Virus record (IMG/VR): IMGVR_UViG_3300043331_001436
Coordinates: 1-29,648 of that record
Source: a virus
Length of the DNA: 29,648 bases
Reading direction: 5' to 3' (one strand)
The notes beneath the pieces are model-generated. The model ran no database searches and was not told where the DNA came from. It saw nothing but the letters and a program-made list of their open reading frames with translations. Positions 25 through 26,158 of the stretch are shown here, in pieces. Both the position numbers and the translations under genes were made by a program. Within the stretch, counting starts at the first letter, position 1, and each line of letters begins with the position of its first letter.

Positions 25-369
25 TCATGGGTGTCTCGAGTAAGAAGCAGCTCTTGTTCCTCTAACGGCTTTCTCGGTCGACGGTCTCCATGGTTTCTTG
101 TCCTCTCCACCAGGTTCTGCAAAGCCCCATTTTCCAAGACAGTGGGAAACAAAACCTGAGGCAGCTCCTCGAGGCATTCCAAAGAGGGTGAATTCGTACT
201 CGAGTTCACCCCTCATAACCCACTTACTCCCGTAAGTCATCGCCCAGTGCATCAGGGCTGTTCTCCTATTCCTGGATTTGAAACGCTCGGAGAGAGTCTT
301 GAAGTTGTGAACTATAGAAGACCGAAGTCGGATGAAGTGGAAGCCATAAATCCTTTTATCATATTTCAT
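25..369 (-). CDS. Hypothetical protein, last visible gene of the nucleotide operon
   Basis: Encodes 114 residues of unknown function. The first half is basic and rich in Arg, His and aromatic residues; a stretch around residues 57-85 (YEFTLFGMPRG, then LGKWGFAE) could be a small winged-helix-like fold, but this is only an impression. The ATG at 369 follows a GGAGG ribosome site by about 10 bases and overlaps the end of the upstream TS-family gene by 11 bases, so it is probably translationally coupled. A second minus-strand frame (15-209) covers its 3' half; either could be coding there, and a frameshift between them cannot be excluded. No family recognised. Confidence 0.55.
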   Translation of the reverse strand: MKYDKRIYGFHFIRLRSSIVHNFKTLSERFKSRNRRTALMHWAMTYGSKWVMRGELEYEFTLFGMPRGAASGFVSHCLGKWGFAEPGGEDKKPWRPSTEKAVRGTRAASYSRHP

Positions 370-1147
370 GGAAGAGTTTCCTCCAATCGTTGATGAAGCA
401 ATGCATCGAGACGCAGTGGAAGCTGAAGATACTGGGACTGACCTTGTTCCACTTCTGGTCCTTCCGCCTTAATTCCTGAAGGAGCCAGAGGGTGAGGCGC
501 GCCGTGAGGTATAGATCATCCCGGAAATGACGAAAGAAATCACAGGACCTGATGTAGTAGGTCGTGTGGAGATTCTCTCCTCGAAGAATCCAATGATAAC
601 CGAGCGTACATGGAACCCGGCCTCCATGGACAACGCCAGTATCCTCGGGGAACCAAATGGGGAGGTAGGCCTGTCTGGTGAATGGATCGCGAAGCAGCTG
701 CTCGATGACATCATTGAGATCTCCGTATGGATACCTGATTCCAAAGTTCATATCACACCCTGGAATCGCCTGATAGCCGGCCTGCTTCGGCCAGTACCTT
801 TCCATGTAGGTATGGGTGAACTTATCGCCTTCGGTCCGGTGAGCATCAGCTGCGAGAGCCCAGGGCCAGTTCTTCCAGGTTTCGCCAGGGTTGAGTGGCT
901 CTCCACCGACCCTTTCCTCGAAGTGCTGATCAGCCCAGGGCAGATTCGGTTGGATATCATCTCTGAGCAGCTGGAGATCCTCGACCAGAGCAACCTGGAA
1001 GCTGATGTTCAGGACCTCCTTCATTGCTGCTTCGGGTCGCTTGGAGACATCCAATCCCTGCCATCGGCCTGGGCCTACATCGTGTGCCTGGTAGTGGAGA
1101 CGATCACCGATGCAGTCGATGGCGAGTCGGAACGTGGGGTATGTCAT
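359..1147 (-). CDS. Thymidylate synthase-family pyrimidine C5-modifying enzyme (possible dCMP-type)
   Basis: A 262-residue divergent member of the ThyA fold, which transfers a one-carbon unit from methylene-tetrahydrofolate to C5 of a pyrimidine deoxynucleotide. Visible marks: catalytic Cys180 in VPCTLGYHW; exactly 20 residues later the phosphate-binding R200-S201-C202-D203; and an H244-x-x-S-x-H249 segment matching HLYSNH of E. coli TS, with Val at the Tyr209 position. Counting ungapped from RSCD, the site equivalent to Asn177, which recognises the uracil ring, is Asp211. T4 dCMP hydroxymethylase and the L. casei N229D mutant also carry Asp there and use dCMP. The ATG at 1147 overlaps the upstream stop (TGATG). 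I infer a dCMP methylase or hydroxymethylase; dUMP as substrate remains possible. Confidence 0.82.
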   Translation of the reverse strand: MTYPTFRLAIDCIGDRLHYQAHDVGPGRWQGLDVSKRPEAAMKEVLNISFQVALVEDLQLLRDDIQPNLPWADQHFEERVGGEPLNPGETWKNWPWALAADAHRTEGDKFTHTYMERYWPKQAGYQAIPGCDMNFGIRYPYGDLNDVIEQLLRDPFTRQAYLPIWFPEDTGVVHGGRVPCTLGYHWILRGENLHTTYYIRSCDFFRHFRDDLYLTARLTLWLLQELRRKDQKWNKVSPSIFSFHCVSMHCFINDWRKLFHEI

Positions 1148-1920
1148 CAAAGGTATTGCTCCAGGTACTCGTTGATCTCCGGCATCCTTTCAGGGTAGTG
1201 CTTCCAAGCGTAGATGTGTTGCTGCTTCTCAGGTGCGTACGGGAACTCGTGCTCCTGCTTACGTACACTCCGCCTCAGGAATCTGGTGGCCACAACAAAC
1301 AACTTCGGCTCCTCTATTCTTATCTTCTCCAGGAACACGATTGGATCCCACCACCTGAACAGCGTCGGGAAGAAGACTCCACTGAGGTAAGCGTGAGTGA
1401 AGTAAAACTTCACGATGTCCGGCTTCACTTCAAGGCGGTCGAAGACCACTGGCAAGAAGGCTAGGTCGGCACTGTGTTTCTTGATTACCTCAGTGGAGCG
1501 GTACAGTACCTCCACCGTCGTGGTCTTCTTGGTCAGTCCAATGACCATGGATTCCATGCAGTGACCCATCGAGCGTGAGTCCTTTGCGCCTGCCCTGAAC
1601 GAATAGGCGAGCGCTGAGAAGGCCTGGTCAGCGCGTCGCGTCAGTAACGCACGAACTCGAGTCGCCTCTTCAGGATTGTAGTACATTCTCTCAAGATTCT
1701 TCATCTTGACTTTGGGGTTGTATCCGACCGCTTCAAGATCGACTTCAGGAATCTTCGGTAGGCTGAACCCGACGGACTGGACGATCTTACGAGCTCCATT
1801 GTACTCCAGAACAGGAGCACTAAGGCAAGCGCGAACAGCTTCATAGGAAGGGAAAGCGGTTCCGTCATACCCCAGTAGAGATCCGTTGCTGATTGATCTC
1901 AGCTTTCTTAAAGTAGCCAT
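1147..1920 (-). CDS. Second, highly divergent thymidylate-synthase-fold protein
   Basis: 257 residues. It is not obviously a TS, but the active-site skeleton is recognisable: Cys121 is followed exactly 20 residues later by R141-S142-T143-E144 (TS: Cys146 to R166-S-C-D169), then an amphipathic helix with Asp152 at the Asn177 position, then a beta segment with H176-A-Y178 matching the His207-x-Tyr209 ribose-binding pair. The C-terminal part is rich in basic and aromatic residues. The ATG at 1920 has a weak AGGA site about 11 bases upstream; a longer frame up to 1986 exists but would overlap the upstream gene by 122 bases. It sits between the pyrophosphatase and the other TS-family gene, suggesting a second step or partner in the same pathway. 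It could also be a catalytically altered or structural homologue. The fold assignment rests on motif spacing only. Confidence 0.65.
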   Translation of the reverse strand: MATLRKLRSISNGSLLGYDGTAFPSYEAVRACLSAPVLEYNGARKIVQSVGFSLPKIPEVDLEAVGYNPKVKMKNLERMYYNPEEATRVRALLTRRADQAFSALAYSFRAGAKDSRSMGHCMESMVIGLTKKTTTVEVLYRSTEVIKKHSADLAFLPVVFDRLEVKPDIVKFYFTHAYLSGVFFPTLFRWWDPIVFLEKIRIEEPKLFVVATRFLRRSVRKQEHEFPYAPEKQQHIYAWKHYPERMPEINEYLEQYL

Positions 1921-2404
1921 TGAGTAGTTGTTCCTCGCTGTAACCACATTCATTGACATGATCCAGGTACGAGGCGAAGAGTTCAACCACTGCCGTCCTG
2001 ATCATGAACAAGTCTGCCGTCAGCTTCTTCTGCTTCCAAGGCCTCAGCCTCAAACTGTGGAGGAGTCGTCCCATTGCAGATCCCATCATCCCGGGAACCG
2101 CCAAATTCTGGTTGGCGTACAGGCTCTGAGCGCTGACACCGGCTCGTAGGCAGATCTCAGCGAGGAAGTGCAGGGCATCACAAAGTTCCTCGAGATCAGC
2201 TGTCCCCTCGAGAGCGTGGGCTTCCCACATTTCCTCAGAGAAGTAGGTAATGAACAGGCGGATTACGGCCTGTCCCTGATAGGAATCGAGATCAGCTGGG
2301 ATCGAATGATTCAGGTTCGAGAGATTCGTTTGCTCGATCAACGAGAACTGATTGGCTAGGATCAGCTGATGGTTGAGTAGCTCTCGTATCTGCTCCAGTG
2401 TCAC
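1865..2404 (-). CDS. All-alpha NTP pyrophosphatase (dUTPase_2 / dCTPase / MazG type)
   Basis: 179 residues from a GTG at 2404. The metal-binding pattern of the all-alpha pyrophosphatases is present: E57-E58-x-x-E61, then E73-L-C-D76 in ELCDALHF. The segment after it (AEICLRAGVSAQSLYANQN) resembles the region following ELVDIFHF in T4 gp56. Such enzymes hydrolyse dNTPs to dNMP and pyrophosphate, which in T4 removes dCTP and dUTP and supplies dCMP and dUMP. The GTG is preceded by GGGAG at 7 bases; an upstream TTG (2461) would add 19 low-complexity residues. It overlaps the kinase gene by 113 bases and the next gene by 56 bases, unusually large for this phage. Substrate choice among dUTP, dCTP and others cannot be read from the sequence. 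Confidence 0.75.
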   Translation of the reverse strand: MTLEQIRELLNHQLILANQFSLIEQTNLSNLNHSIPADLDSYQGQAVIRLFITYFSEEMWEAHALEGTADLEELCDALHFLAEICLRAGVSAQSLYANQNLAVPGMMGSAMGRLLHSLRLRPWKQKKLTADLFMIRTAVVELFASYLDHVNECGYSEEQLLNGYFKKAEINQQRISTGV

Positions 2405-2918
2405 TTTGGCTCTCCCACATGCGGTCGATGATGTTGTTGAGCTCGTCTCCATCTCGATCAAAGTCGTAGTGGTAGACTCGCTTGTAAAGACTCAGTTCGG
2501 TCATCAACGAATCATAGGCTGTGATGATTTTATCGATGAGATCGGGCACGCCTTCCATCTGAGGTGTGATTCGAGTGTTGAGACGAATCCGATCCTTCGA
2601 CGGTCGGCAGTAGATGATCATCGACACTCCGCCCAACAAAGCTCGAGTAGCTTTCGCTCCCTCGAACTCGGCTAAGTGATTGATTCCACGGAAAATTGGT
2701 CCGTAGATTTGTTCGCTGATGGCAGGGTGTCGGTCGAAGAGGAGATCGAGTTTTTCAGGTCTGGACGTAATCCATCGGAGAGTTCGGAGGATTTCTGGTT
2801 TCGAGGTTGGCGGCCTCGATGGTCTCATGATCCAGAAGTAGCGATCAGATCTTGCTCGAATTTGATGGATGAGTGTTGTCTTTCCGGCTCCATCTGGGCC
2901 TTCAACAATCACGATCAT
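2292..2918 (-). CDS. P-loop deoxynucleotide kinase (thymidylate kinase-like)
   Basis: 208 residues. A Walker A loop opens the protein (GPDGAGKTT, residues 7-15), followed by a TMP-kinase-like D62-R63-H64 motif in FDRHPAISEQIYGP and a probable LID at about residues 103-115 (YCRPSKDRIRLN). The kinase domain ends near residue 171; the remaining 37 residues are Ser/Thr/Asp/Pro-rich and lie over the start of the pyrophosphatase gene, so the tail may be non-essential. It begins with ATG at 2918, with GAGGAG about 8 bases upstream, and is the first gene of the leftward operon. Likely role: phosphorylating a normal or modified deoxynucleoside monophosphate (compare T4 gp1). A 5-hydroxymethyl-dU DNA kinase acting on polymer is an alternative, because those phage kinases also belong to the P-loop class. 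Confidence 0.78.
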   Translation of the reverse strand: MIVIVEGPDGAGKTTLIHQIRARSDRYFWIMRPSRPPTSKPEILRTLRWITSRPEKLDLLFDRHPAISEQIYGPIFRGINHLAEFEGAKATRALLGGVSMIIYCRPSKDRIRLNTRITPQMEGVPDLIDKIITAYDSLMTELSLYKRVYHYDFDRDGDELNNIIDRMWESQSDTGADTRATQPSADPSQSVLVDRANESLEPESFDPS

Positions 2919-3073: not shown

Positions 3074-5206
3074 ATGGCGAATCGTAAGGCAGATGCGCCC
3101 GGAAGTAAACACTATGATGCCAGAAGCATCGCTAGAGAATGGCTTAAGGACGGAATCATGCCAGTACCACTCGGTCCTTCGTCAAAGAAACCGAGTGGTG
3201 GAGAGGGGTGGAACCTGCTTCGAGTTACTCCGGAGACTATTGACATTCACTTCTCTCCAGAGGACAACGTCGGGGCTTTATGGGGCTCTCCCAGTGGGTG
3301 GGTCGTTGATATCGATCTGGACTGGGACGAGTCCGTCAAGGTTGCGCAGCGCCTGTTACCACGTACCAGAGTGTACGGGCGTGCCAATCGCCCCCGATCA
3401 CATTACTTGTTTAAGTGCCAGGACATTAAGACTGGCAAGTGGCTAGCTCCGCCGCCTAACGGCACGAACATCGTTGAGATTCGTTCAACAGGTAGTCAGT
3501 CAGTACTTCCTCCCTCCCGTCACCCTGAGGGGGATCTCTATCAGATCGATGACAACTGTCCTCCATCAGAGACGACACCGAAGCAGCTTGAGCGGTGGGT
3601 CAACAAGATTGCCGCGGCCTCGATTCTAGCGCGTCACTACCCTGACGAAGGGGGGCGACACGACTTCATCCATGCCATCACCGGTGGACTCCTTCAGTTA
3701 CACTGGCAAGATGACGCCGTCATCGATTTCACCTGGGCTATCCTCGACGCAGTAGAAGAGATCGAAGACGACCGACCTCAGCGTGAACGAACCATACACA
3801 ATACAATCAAGAGTTTCCACTCTGGGGGGAAGGTATACGGTTTCAAGACCCTGCTGCAATGGGTCACTCCCGAGGTTAGGGATCGACTCAATCGCTGGCT
3901 CGAGAGGGACGCTCGATATAGAGTGAACTTCAGTGAAGTTCCCACCCGAGTCGATCATGGTATCAAGCAAGAGAATTCTATTCAACCATGGCTACTCGAA
4001 GTGCCAGGGTTGGTCGGCGAGATAGCCAAGTGGGCTGGCGCGCGATCCTACGTAAAGCAACCGTTGTTCGATCTGGCTGCTGGTCTAATGAGCACAGCTC
4101 TGCTGAGTGGGAACCGGTTCGTTGTGGATGTCTGGAATACACCGCTACAACCATACTTCATGATCCTCGCACCGACTGCCTGTGGTAAGGAATCTGCGCT
4201 GAACTCGGTTGCTGATTTCGCTCACAGGATGGAACTGGCTGATTCAGTGTTCCAGGGGTTTCAATCCTACCACGCGATGCTCGATCAACTATTGAAGCCA
4301 CCAAACATGGCGTGCTGGTTGTGGGACGAGGCAGGACGTAAGCTGAGACAGGCTGGGAAATCGACCGCTAGTCCTGAGGGTCAGGTGGTAACCTGGCTAC
4401 TCTCTCTGTACGGACGAGCAAATTCCTACTCTCCTGCTTTCCCTGGCCGACAACAAACCATCCCACGAATCGATCATCCATACCTGATCACGTTGGCAGC
4501 TAGTCAGCCAACGATCCTGGTCGAAGCGATCACAACCTCTGATCTCAGTACAGGTCTGATTAATCGGTTCATTCTCATCGATGCCGGGGACAATCCACCT
4601 GAAGATAACTTTAATAGGGTAGATCTATTCCCAGTGAAACTCGCAGAGTCAGCTCGACGGTTCAGTCAGGTTCATATGAATGGGACGTTTATCACCATTC
4701 CTTTTGACTCGACGGCAACGTATAATGTGTTCAAGAACTTTCAAGTGGAGTCTCGGAAACGAGCTGCGATGGAAGGATCTAACGAGATGTGGGGCAGAGC
4801 AACTCAGAACGCTCTGATCTTAGCGGGGATTATCTCCGTTGGCGTTGACCCACTTCATCCACAAATTACTAAACCCGTTGCCGAATGGTCTGTCGAGTTC
4901 AGTCGCTGGAGCTTCGTCCAGTGGAACAACAGGCTTGGAGATTTAGGATCACGCTCGCGAGTGGAGGAACACTCAAAGCAAGTCGAACGAATCATCATGA
5001 ATCCCCGGGTGTATATGGAACGTTTCCAGAAGCGAGCCAATCTGGTCAAGCTTCTATCTGAGGGACTCATGCCGAGATCCGTTCTAACCCGATTGTGTAG
5101 GAACCTAACCTCTCGGGAATTGGATGAGGTTCTAGCAAGCTTGATGCAGGCAGAGCTAATCGCTGGCGGGGATCGAGGCGATTGTGAGGTCTACTGGTCT
5201 AAGTAG
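3074..5206 (+). CDS. Primase-polymerase / ATPase replication protein
   Basis: 710 residues with two modules. The N-terminal third looks like a bifunctional primase-polymerase (Prim-Pol) domain: D79-I-D81 in VVDIDLDW as metal ligands, S109-H110 in PRSHYLF, and IRSTGSQSVLPPSRH near residue 140. The C-terminal part resembles DUF3987-type helicase/ATPase domains, with a P-loop APTACGKES (about 366-374) and a Walker B-like WLWDE (D418, E419). Such proteins prime and unwind DNA during phage or plasmid replication. The start is ATG with AGGAG about 9 bases upstream. It is transcribed divergently from the nucleotide operon, which fits a shared role in DNA synthesis. The residue roles are assigned by motif only. 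Confidence 0.8.
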   Translation: MANRKADAPGSKHYDARSIAREWLKDGIMPVPLGPSSKKPSGGEGWNLLRVTPETIDIHFSPEDNVGALWGSPSGWVVDIDLDWDESVKVAQRLLPRTRVYGRANRPRSHYLFKCQDIKTGKWLAPPPNGTNIVEIRSTGSQSVLPPSRHPEGDLYQIDDNCPPSETTPKQLERWVNKIAAASILARHYPDEGGRHDFIHAITGGLLQLHWQDDAVIDFTWAILDAVEEIEDDRPQRERTIHNTIKSFHSGGKVYGFKTLLQWVTPEVRDRLNRWLERDARYRVNFSEVPTRVDHGIKQENSIQPWLLEVPGLVGEIAKWAGARSYVKQPLFDLAAGLMSTALLSGNRFVVDVWNTPLQPYFMILAPTACGKESALNSVADFAHRMELADSVFQGFQSYHAMLDQLLKPPNMACWLWDEAGRKLRQAGKSTASPEGQVVTWLLSLYGRANSYSPAFPGRQQTIPRIDHPYLITLAASQPTILVEAITTSDLSTGLINRFILIDAGDNPPEDNFNRVDLFPVKLAESARRFSQVHMNGTFITIPFDSTATYNVFKNFQVESRKRAAMEGSNEMWGRATQNALILAGIISVGVDPLHPQITKPVAEWSVEFSRWSFVQWNNRLGDLGSRSRVEEHSKQVERIIMNPRVYMERFQKRANLVKLLSEGLMPRSVLTRLCRNLTSRELDEVLASLMQAELIAGGDRGDCEVYWSK

Positions 5207-23914: not shown

Positions 23915-26158
23915 ATGCCATCAAATGTCACACTGAACGCTGGCGCTGGTGGAGCAAATGCTGCCACTGCACAGATCTCTCACGATGGGGATACTGCACA
24001 GCTTCAGTTGGTCGGGATCATGGGCATCTCAGGAACTGAGGATGCCTACACGGTCGCGAAGATCAATGGTGACGCAACCAACGGGTTGGATGTAGACGTC
24101 ACTCGAGTAATACCTGGAGCCACTGCAACGGCTCTTGGAAAAGCTGAGGATGCTGCTCACACGACTGGGGACGTGGGTGTCATGTCTCTAGCCGTTAGGC
24201 AGGATACTGCTGCTCAGCTAGCAGGGACAGATGGAGACTACTCTCCTCTGATCACTGATGCCAACGGGAGACTACACGTCAACCCGGGCACTGTGACGAT
24301 TGCTTCCATCCCGGCAGGAAGCAACAACATCGGGGACGTGGATGTTCTGACTCTCCCAGCTCTACCCGCTGGTACCAACAACATCGGCGATGTCGATGTA
24401 CTGACCTTACCCGCTCTACCAGCAGGAACGAACAACATAGGTGATGTCGATGTGCTCACGCTCCCGGCACTCCCTGCTGGTACGAACAACATTGGTGACG
24501 TGGATGTTGTTACTCTACCAGCTTTGCCAGCTGGTACGAACAACATTGGAGACGTCGATGTCCTCACAGCGCCCGGAACCTTCGCAGAGGACTCAGCCCA
24601 CGTTACCGCTGATCTGGGTTACCAGGTTCTGGGTGTCCGAAGAGACGCCAATACTTCATTGGTTGGAACTGACGGGGACTACGCTCCCCTTCAGGTATCT
24701 GCCAACGGAGCTCTGAAGGTTGCCATCACCGAAGGTGCTGGATCAGGTGGAGCTTCTGCTACTGATGATGCTGCCTTCACTGTAGGATCCGGGTCGGGAA
24801 ATCCGATCATGGGTCTGGCCGACGAGACCACCCCTGACTCTGTAGATGAGGGAGACGTCGGTGTAGTTCGAATGACTCTAGCCCGAGGTCTTCATGTTCA
24901 CCTCCGAGATTCAGTGGGAGACTCTGTTACTGATGACGCGAACAACGCAGTCAGAGTCAACGTAGTAGCTGGAGCTCTTCAGGGCCAGACTGACGATTCA
25001 GCTTTTACTCCTGCCTCGGGAGTCGGTCTCGTCTTCATGGCGATGGCTGATGAGACCACACCAGATTCAGTAGATGAGGGAGATGCTGGCGCCGTCAGGA
25101 TGACACTCGCTCGAGGTCTGCACGTCAATCTTCGTGACGATGCTGGCGACTCAGTCATGGATGGAGGCAACAACGCAGTTCGTGTCAACATCGTCGCCGG
25201 TGCTGGTTCTGGTGGAACAGCCATGGCTGATGACTCAGCCTTTACGCCGGCTACTACGCAGGGTACTCCAGCCTTTGCGATGTTCGATGATACAACCCCT
25301 GACTCAGTGGATGAGGGGGACGGTGGCATTCTGAGAATGTCAGCCAATCGAAATCTCTATACTACGATCAGAGATGCGGCTGGCAATGAACGAGGAGTCA
25401 ACGTCACTGCTGGGAATCGACTTCAGACCTCAACAACCATCGATGCTGCGATTCCGGCAGGTACAAACAACATCGGTGATGTTGATGTTCTATCGGTGGT
25501 TCCGGGAACTGGTGCTAATGATCTAGGTAAGGCAGAAGACGCTGCTCATGCTTCGGCTGATGTTGGGGTAATGGCTCTGGCAGTTCGCCGAGATACCGTG
25601 GCTGTAGGATCAGGAACCGATGGAGACTATTCATCGATCAACGTTGACGCTTCAGGGAGAGTATACGTCAATGCTCAGGGACCAGCTGCAGCTGATGCGG
25701 CTGTGGCTGGAAACCCAGTACGAATTGGTCTCCGAGCCTCGGTAGATGAGCCGACTGCTGTCAGTGCTGATGGGGACGTAGTCGATCCTTGGTCGGATCG
25801 AATCGGTAGACAGGTGGTTCTGTTGGGGCATGCTGACCCCGAGCCCCCTCTTACGGTGAATGCCACAGCCTCTGGGGACAACACTGTTATCGGGGCTCCA
25901 GGGGCTAACGTCTCCATCGTACTTTGCAAAGGATCAGTCCACAATCGAGACACCACTAACCGTCGAGTGTCTCTCCAGGATGGTGCAGCTGGTACTATTC
26001 GATGGACAGCTGAGCTCGCAGCCGAGGGCGGCGGTTCTCTCTTCGATTTCGGGTCAAGGGGTTGGGTTCTGACTGCGAATACGCTTCTCAACGCAGAGCT
26101 GGACGCAGCTGGAAGTATAGATGTCAACGTAACTGAGTACTACCTGCTGGCTGTATGA
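23915..26158 (+). CDS. Tail fibre/spike built of nested repeats
   Basis: 747 residues. From the start: a short cap; repeat A (GKAEDAAHTTGDVGVMSLAVR to GRLHV, about residues 75-124); five back-to-back GTNNIGDVDV units of 18 residues (about 132-218); a second A repeat; three B repeats beginning DD[AS]AFT and containing TPDSVDEGD (residues 284, 360, 439); another GTNNIGDVDV unit (about 513); a third A repeat (about 538); and a C-terminal beta domain. Gly/Asp/Val-rich repeats suggest an extended trimeric fibre. No catalytic motif. It ends overlapping the next gene as ATGA. Confidence 0.82.
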   Translation: MPSNVTLNAGAGGANAATAQISHDGDTAQLQLVGIMGISGTEDAYTVAKINGDATNGLDVDVTRVIPGATATALGKAEDAAHTTGDVGVMSLAVRQDTAAQLAGTDGDYSPLITDANGRLHVNPGTVTIASIPAGSNNIGDVDVLTLPALPAGTNNIGDVDVLTLPALPAGTNNIGDVDVLTLPALPAGTNNIGDVDVVTLPALPAGTNNIGDVDVLTAPGTFAEDSAHVTADLGYQVLGVRRDANTSLVGTDGDYAPLQVSANGALKVAITEGAGSGGASATDDAAFTVGSGSGNPIMGLADETTPDSVDEGDVGVVRMTLARGLHVHLRDSVGDSVTDDANNAVRVNVVAGALQGQTDDSAFTPASGVGLVFMAMADETTPDSVDEGDAGAVRMTLARGLHVNLRDDAGDSVMDGGNNAVRVNIVAGAGSGGTAMADDSAFTPATTQGTPAFAMFDDTTPDSVDEGDGGILRMSANRNLYTTIRDAAGNERGVNVTAGNRLQTSTTIDAAIPAGTNNIGDVDVLSVVPGTGANDLGKAEDAAHASADVGVMALAVRRDTVAVGSGTDGDYSSINVDASGRVYVNAQGPAAADAAVAGNPVRIGLRASVDEPTAVSADGDVVDPWSDRIGRQVVLLGHADPEPPLTVNATASGDNTVIGAPGANVSIVLCKGSVHNRDTTNRRVSLQDGAAGTIRWTAELAAEGGGSLFDFGSRGWVLTANTLLNAELDAAGSIDVNVTEYYLLAV
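24308..24568 (+). repeat. Tandem 54-bp coding repeats in the tail fibre
   Basis: One 45-bp and four 54-bp units encode PAG[ST]NNIGDVDV. They are nearly identical as protein but vary at many third positions. A sixth, isolated unit is at 25451-25492. Confidence 0.85.
24764..25417 (+). repeat. Three long B-type coding repeats in the tail fibre
   Basis: Units begin at 24764, 24992 and 25229, each about 190-235 bp, coding DD[AS]AFT, then TPDSVDEGD, then a basic beta strand and an AVRVN or GVNV end. The third is shortened and diverged. They are flanked by A-type repeats near 24137, 24586 and 25526. Confidence 0.8.

Follow-up and report, generated by a model that had tools for sequence, protein, structure and literature searches.

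Gene content of the locus

The window, by which we mean the whole 29,648-nucleotide stretch of viral DNA analysed here, begins with an overlapping run of minus-strand genes for a kinase-like protein, a gp56-like pyrophosphatase, and two proteins that we call TS2 and TS1. TS1 (positions 359-1147, minus strand) is a protein of 262 amino acids, read from an ATG at 1147 to a TGA at 361-359, and its translation together with Pfam, PHROG, AlphaFold and PDB comparisons points to a thymidylate synthase (TS)-superfamily enzyme with a cytosine-type active site. The Pfam model PF00303 matches it at 23.1 bits, slightly below the cut-off of 24.3, and PHROG 160 matches with an E value of 2.8e-27. Immediately upstream, TS2 (1147-1920, minus strand; 257 amino acids from an ATG at 1920) appears to be a cryptic second TS-fold paralogue, as judged from PHROG 34294, AlphaFold, PDB and hhalign comparisons; its stop codon overlaps the start of TS1 in the sequence TGATG. 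The pyrophosphatase (1865-2461, minus strand; start codon uncertain) is an all-alpha NTP pyrophosphatase of the dUTPase_2 or T4 gp56 (dCTPase-dUTPase) type (PF08761, 8.3e-10), and an HMM of its family matches T4 gp56 at 23 bits. The first gene of the run (2292-2918, minus strand) encodes a P-loop (deoxy)nucleoside monophosphate kinase-like protein that matches PHROG 761, "thymidylate kinase" (8e-16). A 114-residue reading frame with no family in Pfam or PHROG directly follows TS1 and overlaps its end (25-369, minus strand) at the window edge, and a primase-polymerase/helicase-like replication protein (3074-5206, plus strand; PF09250, 3.2e-12; PHROG 3022, 1.3e-42) is the divergent neighbour. 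Elsewhere in the window, a reading frame at 23915-26158 contains repeated 'PAGTNNIGDVDVLTLPAL' units.

The window ends before the next gene of the module. In the closest relative among those kept (L001, TS1 65% identical), a dCMP deaminase (PF00383) and then a polymerase lie past TS1. We collected 111 unique TS1 loci, of which 91 have genes of the module no more than 6 kb away and 20 lie outside the module. The deaminase is present in 90 of the 91, the polymerase in 85, the pyrophosphatase in 82, TS2 in 79, and the kinase in 75; the TS2 count is inflated because 54 loci entered through the TS2 search, and among the 68 unique viral loci that came from the TS1 search, 41 have TS2. The neighbourhood of kinase, gp56-like pyrophosphatase, TS1, dCMP deaminase and polymerase fits a dCMP-modification cassette.

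The TS1/TS2 pair occurs widely among phages and in some is joined by a third paralogue. TS1 is found in named phages of Serratia, Pseudomonas, Yersinia, Brevundimonas, Streptomyces, Microbacterium and Gordonia and in mycobacteriophage Muddy; nine of the 13 named phages have a recognisable TS2, and in the four actinophages a gene without an assigned family occupies the TS2 slot. A scan of genome contigs returned seven MAG contigs, which are probably phage sequence. Around the TS1 copies outside the module, Pfam scans found NT5C, IMPDH, glycosyltransferase and other domains in no consistent pattern. At one such copy, TS1 is adjoined by an NT5C-type deoxyribonucleotidase (L053:7071-7613; PF06941), a family that includes the dTMP phosphatase used by phage PBS1 for its dU-DNA. 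Another locus (L002:1937-4977) lacks TS2; ahead of its TS1 lie a putative C5-methyltransferase-like gene that apparently contains an inserted element, a second methyltransferase-like gene and an asparagine-synthase-like gene, all named by eye.

Active-site register and conservation of TS1

The first-pass annotation had aligned TS1 with E. coli TS by counting residues, and comparison with the MG1655 ThyA sequence bears this out exactly: Cys180, R200-S-C-D203 and Asp211 have the spacing of Cys146, R166-S-C-D169 and Asn177, with 20 residues from Cys180 to Arg200 and 11 from Arg200 to Asp211. On the minus strand, the corresponding codons are 608-610 for the nucleophile Cys180, 605-607 for Thr181 (the E. 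coli His147 site), 548-550 for Arg200 (Arg166), 515-517 for Asp211 (Asn177), and 617-619 for Arg177, which lies three residues before the Cys at the position of Asp145 in T4 dCMP hydroxymethylase. The annotation's second premise, that the T4 enzyme gp42 carries Asp at the Asn177 site, also held in the sequence that we retrieved, where Asp falls 11 residues after the Arg as in TS1. The SPO1 dUMP hydroxymethylase has one residue more in this stretch, with its Asn at Arg plus 12. As this exception demonstrates, residue counting can mislead, and the TS1 register was therefore checked by hhalign, MAFFT and AlphaFold/PDB comparison. Alignment of TS1 with E. coli ThyA by hhalign (Prob 99.2 local, 99.5 global) gave the same register, as did MAFFT for Asp211. 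In the structure-based comparison that the annotation had proposed as a check, with the residue register taken from hhalign, Asp211 stays at the Asn177 site. Thus, TS1 has both the TS fold and the Cys-20-Arg-11-Asn/Asp register of the superfamily. We rejected the residue before Gly136 as the counterpart of Tyr94, an assignment in which the Tyr would have been lost, because in both the hhalign and the MAFFT alignments the invariant Tyr114 falls at that position. The catalytic Glu58 has no clear TS1 counterpart in either alignment.

Conservation was assessed in an alignment of 86 nonredundant viral TS1 sequences (A3; E ≤ 1e-80, at least 230 amino acids, at most 88% identity), built from a search that retained the 80 best of its 396 TS1 places. 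The named phages, together with the window itself (L003-L018, with the window as L003), lie outside this alignment by design. Our search patterns included Cys180 and Thr/Ser181 and never residue 211. Asp211 is Asp in 86 of 86 sequences, always 11 residues after the Arg, while the neighbouring position 210 varies (78 Asp, 8 Asn), which argues that the register at Asp211 is not due to chance; Asp211 is also kept in all 16 sequences of a separate alignment holding the 13 named phages. Cys180, Arg200, Arg158, Gln159, Arg177, Tyr114, Glu78 and His249 are each invariant (86/86), Asp203 is present in 85, and His112, two residues before the Tyr that both aligners pair with the catalytic Tyr, is His in 84. 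Position 181, partly selected by the search pattern, is Thr in 60 and Ser in 26 and never His, and position 251 (E. coli 209) is Phe in 81 and Trp in 5. Conservation of the nucleophile, Arg200, Asp203, Tyr114 and His249 argues against TS1 being a dead enzyme.

Two unusual loci came to light among the relatives. At L060:5304-5999, a diverged tandem TS1 paralogue that falls below the E cut-off of the alignment adjoins an intact TS1; it has Thr in place of the catalytic Cys and Asn at the 177 site and is probably a noncatalytic partner. At L137:3440-4699, TS1 is broken in frame by an inserted stretch with what we take to be a LAGLIDADG-like endonuclease motif, an arrangement that recalls mobile elements in other TS genes; we removed this sequence from the alignment by hand.

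Predicted structure of TS1

The AlphaFold model of TS1, built from 86 sequences, has a mean pLDDT of 93.1, and a Foldseek search with it returned TS-superfamily PDB matches. Among the matches listed, the highest Z scores belong to AfhB (9iqc, 19.3), MilA (19.2) and human TS (19.1), with E. coli TS at about 18.6. The nearest solved structures are thus the phage dCMP hydroxylase AfhB and MilA, with human and bacterial ThyAs within one Z unit (18.3-19.3). Profile searches of PDB sequences gave AfhB (32.8 bits), MilA (32.5 bits) and the L. casei TS variant N229D (32.1 bits) as top scores, and this variant scores above its wild type (31.0 bits; E 5.9e-4 vs 1.8e-3). The C-terminal folate lid of ThyA is absent: the TS1 sequence stops shortly past its His249-Cys-Phe251 motif, and the model aligns with E. 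coli residues 1-218/219 only. The Asn177 that defines a canonical ThyA is replaced by Asp in all 86 aligned TS1 sequences.

TS2, a second TS-fold paralogue

TS2 has no Pfam match, and its family corresponds to PHROG 34294, "unknown function," which 52 of 59 members match. Its AlphaFold model (mean pLDDT 91.8; 59 sequences) aligns with the TS fold across residues 22-192, with VIA Z scores of 11.3 for 9iqu/9iqc, 10.4 for MilA and about 9.5 for ThyAs, and Foldseek matches it to T4 dCMP hydroxymethylase at an E value of 1.1e-5. Against a reference TS alignment, hhalign scores TS2 at 32.7, compared with 15.2 for the reversed template and no more than 17.6 in any of 99 shuffles, at a Prob of only 28%. 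This alignment pairs Cys121 with Cys146, Arg141 with Arg166, Glu144 with Asp169, and Asp152 with Asn177, and thereby places the Cys, Arg and Asp in superfamily register. All four TS2 residues are present in 59 of 59 sequences, in each of which Asp152 lies 11 residues after the Arg; our search pattern selected for Arg141 and Glu144 and not for Cys121 (codon 1558-1560, minus strand) or Asp152 (codon 1465-1467, minus strand). Direct profile comparison of TS1 with TS2 gave no significant match (Prob 0.1), and the TS2 profile found no match among PDB sequences. A strict C-20-R-11-D pattern occurs in 8 of 1748 background reading frames and in only 29 TS2 reading frames. The pattern misses many TS2 proteins because their Cys-to-Arg spacing ranges from 20 to 28 and equals 20 in 21 of 59; alone, it is weak evidence.

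By its predicted fold and the shuffle control, TS2 is a TS-superfamily member, which places in this superfamily a protein for which PHROGs and Pfam gave no function. Two GenBank records name it "pyrimidine hmase synthase." We think that it is either a partner subunit of TS1 or the enzyme of the next step. A third short TS-like family lies between TS1 and the deaminase at L026:7353-7919, L033:7047-7580, L088:6930-7484 and L089:6846-7481; these TS2-like paralogues have the Cys, a YRS-x-E motif and Asp at Arg plus 11 ('GDFCLVGG...YRSLELIGGF.YD'). Throughout the tandem TS set, Asp occupies the cytosine site in all except the Cys-less TS1 copy.

Substrate of TS1

The first-pass annotation had suggested a cytosine rather than a uracil substrate. 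This suggestion is supported by Asp211, by Thr or Ser at the 147 site, by the nearest structures, and by the presence of separate dTMP synthases in some TS1 genomes; on these sequence and model comparisons, TS1 probably uses dCMP. Both residues expected of a cytosine-type enzyme, Asp at the 177 site and a residue other than His at the 147 site, are found in TS1. Asp is likewise at the 177 site of T4 gp42, RB69 ORF048, AXL3 gp28, MW202510 and DoCa6 (AXL3 gp28, MW202510 and DoCa6 being classed as cytosine-type by residue and context only), as well as MilA in the PDB alignment, and Thr is at the 147 site of T4 gp42, RB69 ORF048, AXL3 gp28 and MilA. In the uracil enzymes, namely E. coli ThyA, the dUMP hydroxymethylase gp29 of SPO1 and Huwbert gp68, the residue at the 177 site is Asn. 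The MetaGPA study describes positions 177 and 147 as those that best separate the TS proteins of cytosine-modified contigs from others, with mostly Asp at 177 in modified contigs, and cites methylation of dCMP by L. casei N229D (PMC8670742). The same role is reported for MilA Asp186 (PMC5175136) and T4 Asp179 (PMC6400193).

A separate dTMP synthase, ThyX or ThyA, is present in 23 of 63 records and none is seen in 40, although IMG/VR records may be fragments. ThyX was found in 22 of the 63 (18 of 50 IMG/VR records, four of them weak at 25-39 bits, and 4 of 13 named phages). Canonical ThyA was found in none of the 50 IMG/VR records, where PF00303 matches reach at most 37 bits, one per record. 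In the Microbacterium phage Huwbert, gene 68 (L013:6801-7604), directly after TS1, encodes a full canonical ThyA (403.6 bits); here a ThyA with Asn177 and a C-terminal tail adjoins an Asp-type TS1, forming a natural side-by-side control. Genes for DHFR were found in 1 of 50 TS1 records and in all eight Pamexviruses.

Alternatively, TS1 may tolerate the Asp and act on dUMP supplied by the adjoining dCMP deaminase, yielding dTMP or hydroxymethyl-dUMP. The deaminase is nearly constant in the module and would supply dUMP, GenBank labels TS1 a thymidylate synthase, and in the 40 records with neither ThyX nor canonical ThyA, TS1 could be the source of dTMP. Yet the deaminase does not count against a cytosine product, because AXL3, Thanatos and T4 have one and because the MetaGPA study reports that a deaminase domain co-occurs with TS in modified contigs (PMC8670742). 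The invariance of Asp211, the Thr or Ser at the 147 site, the missing lid in the TS1 model, and the retention of TS1 alongside ThyX or a full ThyA all speak against dUMP, as does published work on T4 D179N and on Asn-to-Asp variants of the L. casei and E. coli enzymes (PMC8670742, PMC5175136, PMC6400193). We therefore regard a dUMP substrate as unlikely and TS1 as probably a TS-superfamily enzyme by which the phage modifies deoxycytidylate at C5, rather than a thymidylate synthase. The phages that carry it probably make modified cytosine for their own DNA; literature text searches returned no description of the DNA chemistry of any TS1-carrying phage.

Product of TS1

In the pathway that we envisage, the gp56-like pyrophosphatase would convert dCTP (and dUTP) to monophosphates, and Cys180 of TS1 would add to C6 of dCMP. 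Asp211 would recognise the cytosine ring and protonate N3, as reported for T4 Asp179, so that C5 would turn nucleophilic and accept a substituent. The module kinase would then phosphorylate the modified dCMP on its way to a triphosphate that the phage polymerase can use; we infer both the order of these steps and the incorporation into DNA. Because the ThyA lid is absent, hydride transfer to give a methyl group is unlikely, and a hydroxymethyl, hydroxy or other C5 adduct is expected. Given dCMP as the substrate, hydroxymethyl is a tentative first choice, a substituent outside the three named here is possible, hydroxy is somewhat doubtful, and methyl is improbable.

A T4-type dCMP 5-hydroxymethylase would account for the shared Asp and Thr sites, the missing lid, and the adjoining gp56-like pyrophosphatase and kinase. 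T4-type hydroxymethylation has a reported signature of Asp145 (Asp or Glu, three residues before the Cys) and Ser94 (Ser or Thr, two residues before Tyr96), and T4 D145N and Y96F are described as inactive (PMC6400193). At these two sites, TS1 has Arg in all 86 aligned sequences and His in 84, RB69/AfhB has Glu and Thr, and E. coli ThyA has Leu and Pro, leaving the Arg/His pair peculiar to TS1 among the proteins compared. With Arg at the Asp145 position, the T4 analogy of the first-pass annotation does not extend to the product. By this signature, TS1 lies outside the T4-type class, although it may work similarly with another water-activating residue, and we consider a T4-type activity rather doubtful. 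A 5-hydroxy-dCMP synthase like the flavin-dependent RB69 ORF048/AfhB, perhaps with later glycosylation of the 5-hydroxycytosine, seems less probable still. AfhB (9iqu/9iqc) is among the best PDB matches by sequence and structure and has in common with TS1 the Thr147 and Asp177 sites, Phe at the Tyr209 site and the lack of a long C-terminal tail, and such an activity is described for the superfamily (PMC13390438). However, the AfhB, MilA and ThyA scores are tied, TS1 differs from AfhB/RB69 both at the Asp169 site (Asp against Asn) and three residues ahead of the Cys (Arg against Glu), a glycosyltransferase was not seen among the module genes examined, and the flavin use is taken from the title of PDB entry 9iqc only. 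Least probable, and very much so, is a dCMP methylase of the kind that the TS-like protein of the 5-methylcytosine phage Xp12 may be. The Xp12 relative DoCa6 has Asp at the 177 site and the L. casei N229D enzyme methylates dCMP (cited in PMC8670742), but TS1 is without the C-terminal tail for hydride transfer, and the near absence of DHFR from TS1 records differs from its presence in every Pamexvirus.

The TS1 variant matches no described product class among those compared. A more speculative possibility, which we put forward tentatively, is that tandem TS1 and TS2, sometimes with the third paralogue or a Cys-less TS1 copy, jointly build a cytosine modification outside the T4 and RB69 routes, either as heteromers or in successive steps through one C6-Cys adduct. 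Arg177 and His112 might then let another nucleophile react in place of water, and TS2 might exchange or extend the C5 substituent.

Implications

Our findings suggest that a large family of phage proteins now labelled thymidylate synthase, among them those of Muddy and of many Gordonia phages, probably consists of cytosine-modifying enzymes, in which case the thymine-synthesis annotations in those genomes are likely wrong. These phages may have modified DNA, with effects on restriction, CRISPR and sequencing. In addition, TS2 turns from a family without a function into a testable enzyme, and the Arg-for-Asp replacement at the hydroxymethylation site of TS1 offers a direct test of the residues that set the product in the TS superfamily.

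Comparison with known systems

Canonical ThyA shares with TS1 the fold and the core catalytic residues, whereas its Asn177, His147, Tyr209 and C-terminal lid are all absent from TS1. T4 gp42 is closer in kind, with the TS fold, the Cys/Arg/Asp register, Asp at 177, Thr after the Cys and no C-terminal tail, and T4, like the TS1 module, encodes a pyrophosphatase (gp56) and a dCMP deaminase; yet TS1 is only about 14% identical to gp42 and has Arg for Asp145, His for Ser94 and Phe for Tyr at 209. RB69-type phages are reported to use a TS-superfamily 5-hydroxy-dCMP synthase (PMC13390438). RB69 ORF048, whose sequence matches a stretch of AfhB (9iqu), is with AfhB (9iqu, 9iqc) the nearest solved relative of TS1 by profile score and Z, on a par with MilA and the ThyAs, and shares Thr147, Asp177 and Phe209; it differs from TS1 in Glu rather than Arg before the Cys and Asn rather than Asp at 169, at about 16-18% identity. 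The CMP hydroxymethylase MilA, the tied nearest structure, also has the Asp (Asp186) and Thr after the Cys but is a ribonucleotide enzyme with Ala176 and Lys133, where TS1 has Ser201 and Arg158 as in deoxyribonucleotide enzymes. AXL3 gp28 and Xp12-type proteins resemble TS1 in Asp at the 177 site and a nearby deaminase, and AXL3 also encodes a kinase, a pyrophosphatase and ThyX; the DNA of AXL3 and AXL1 is resistant to enzymes with G/C sites. Unlike TS1, these proteins have Asp or Asn before the Cys, are distant in sequence, and have no TS2 annotated or noticed nearby.
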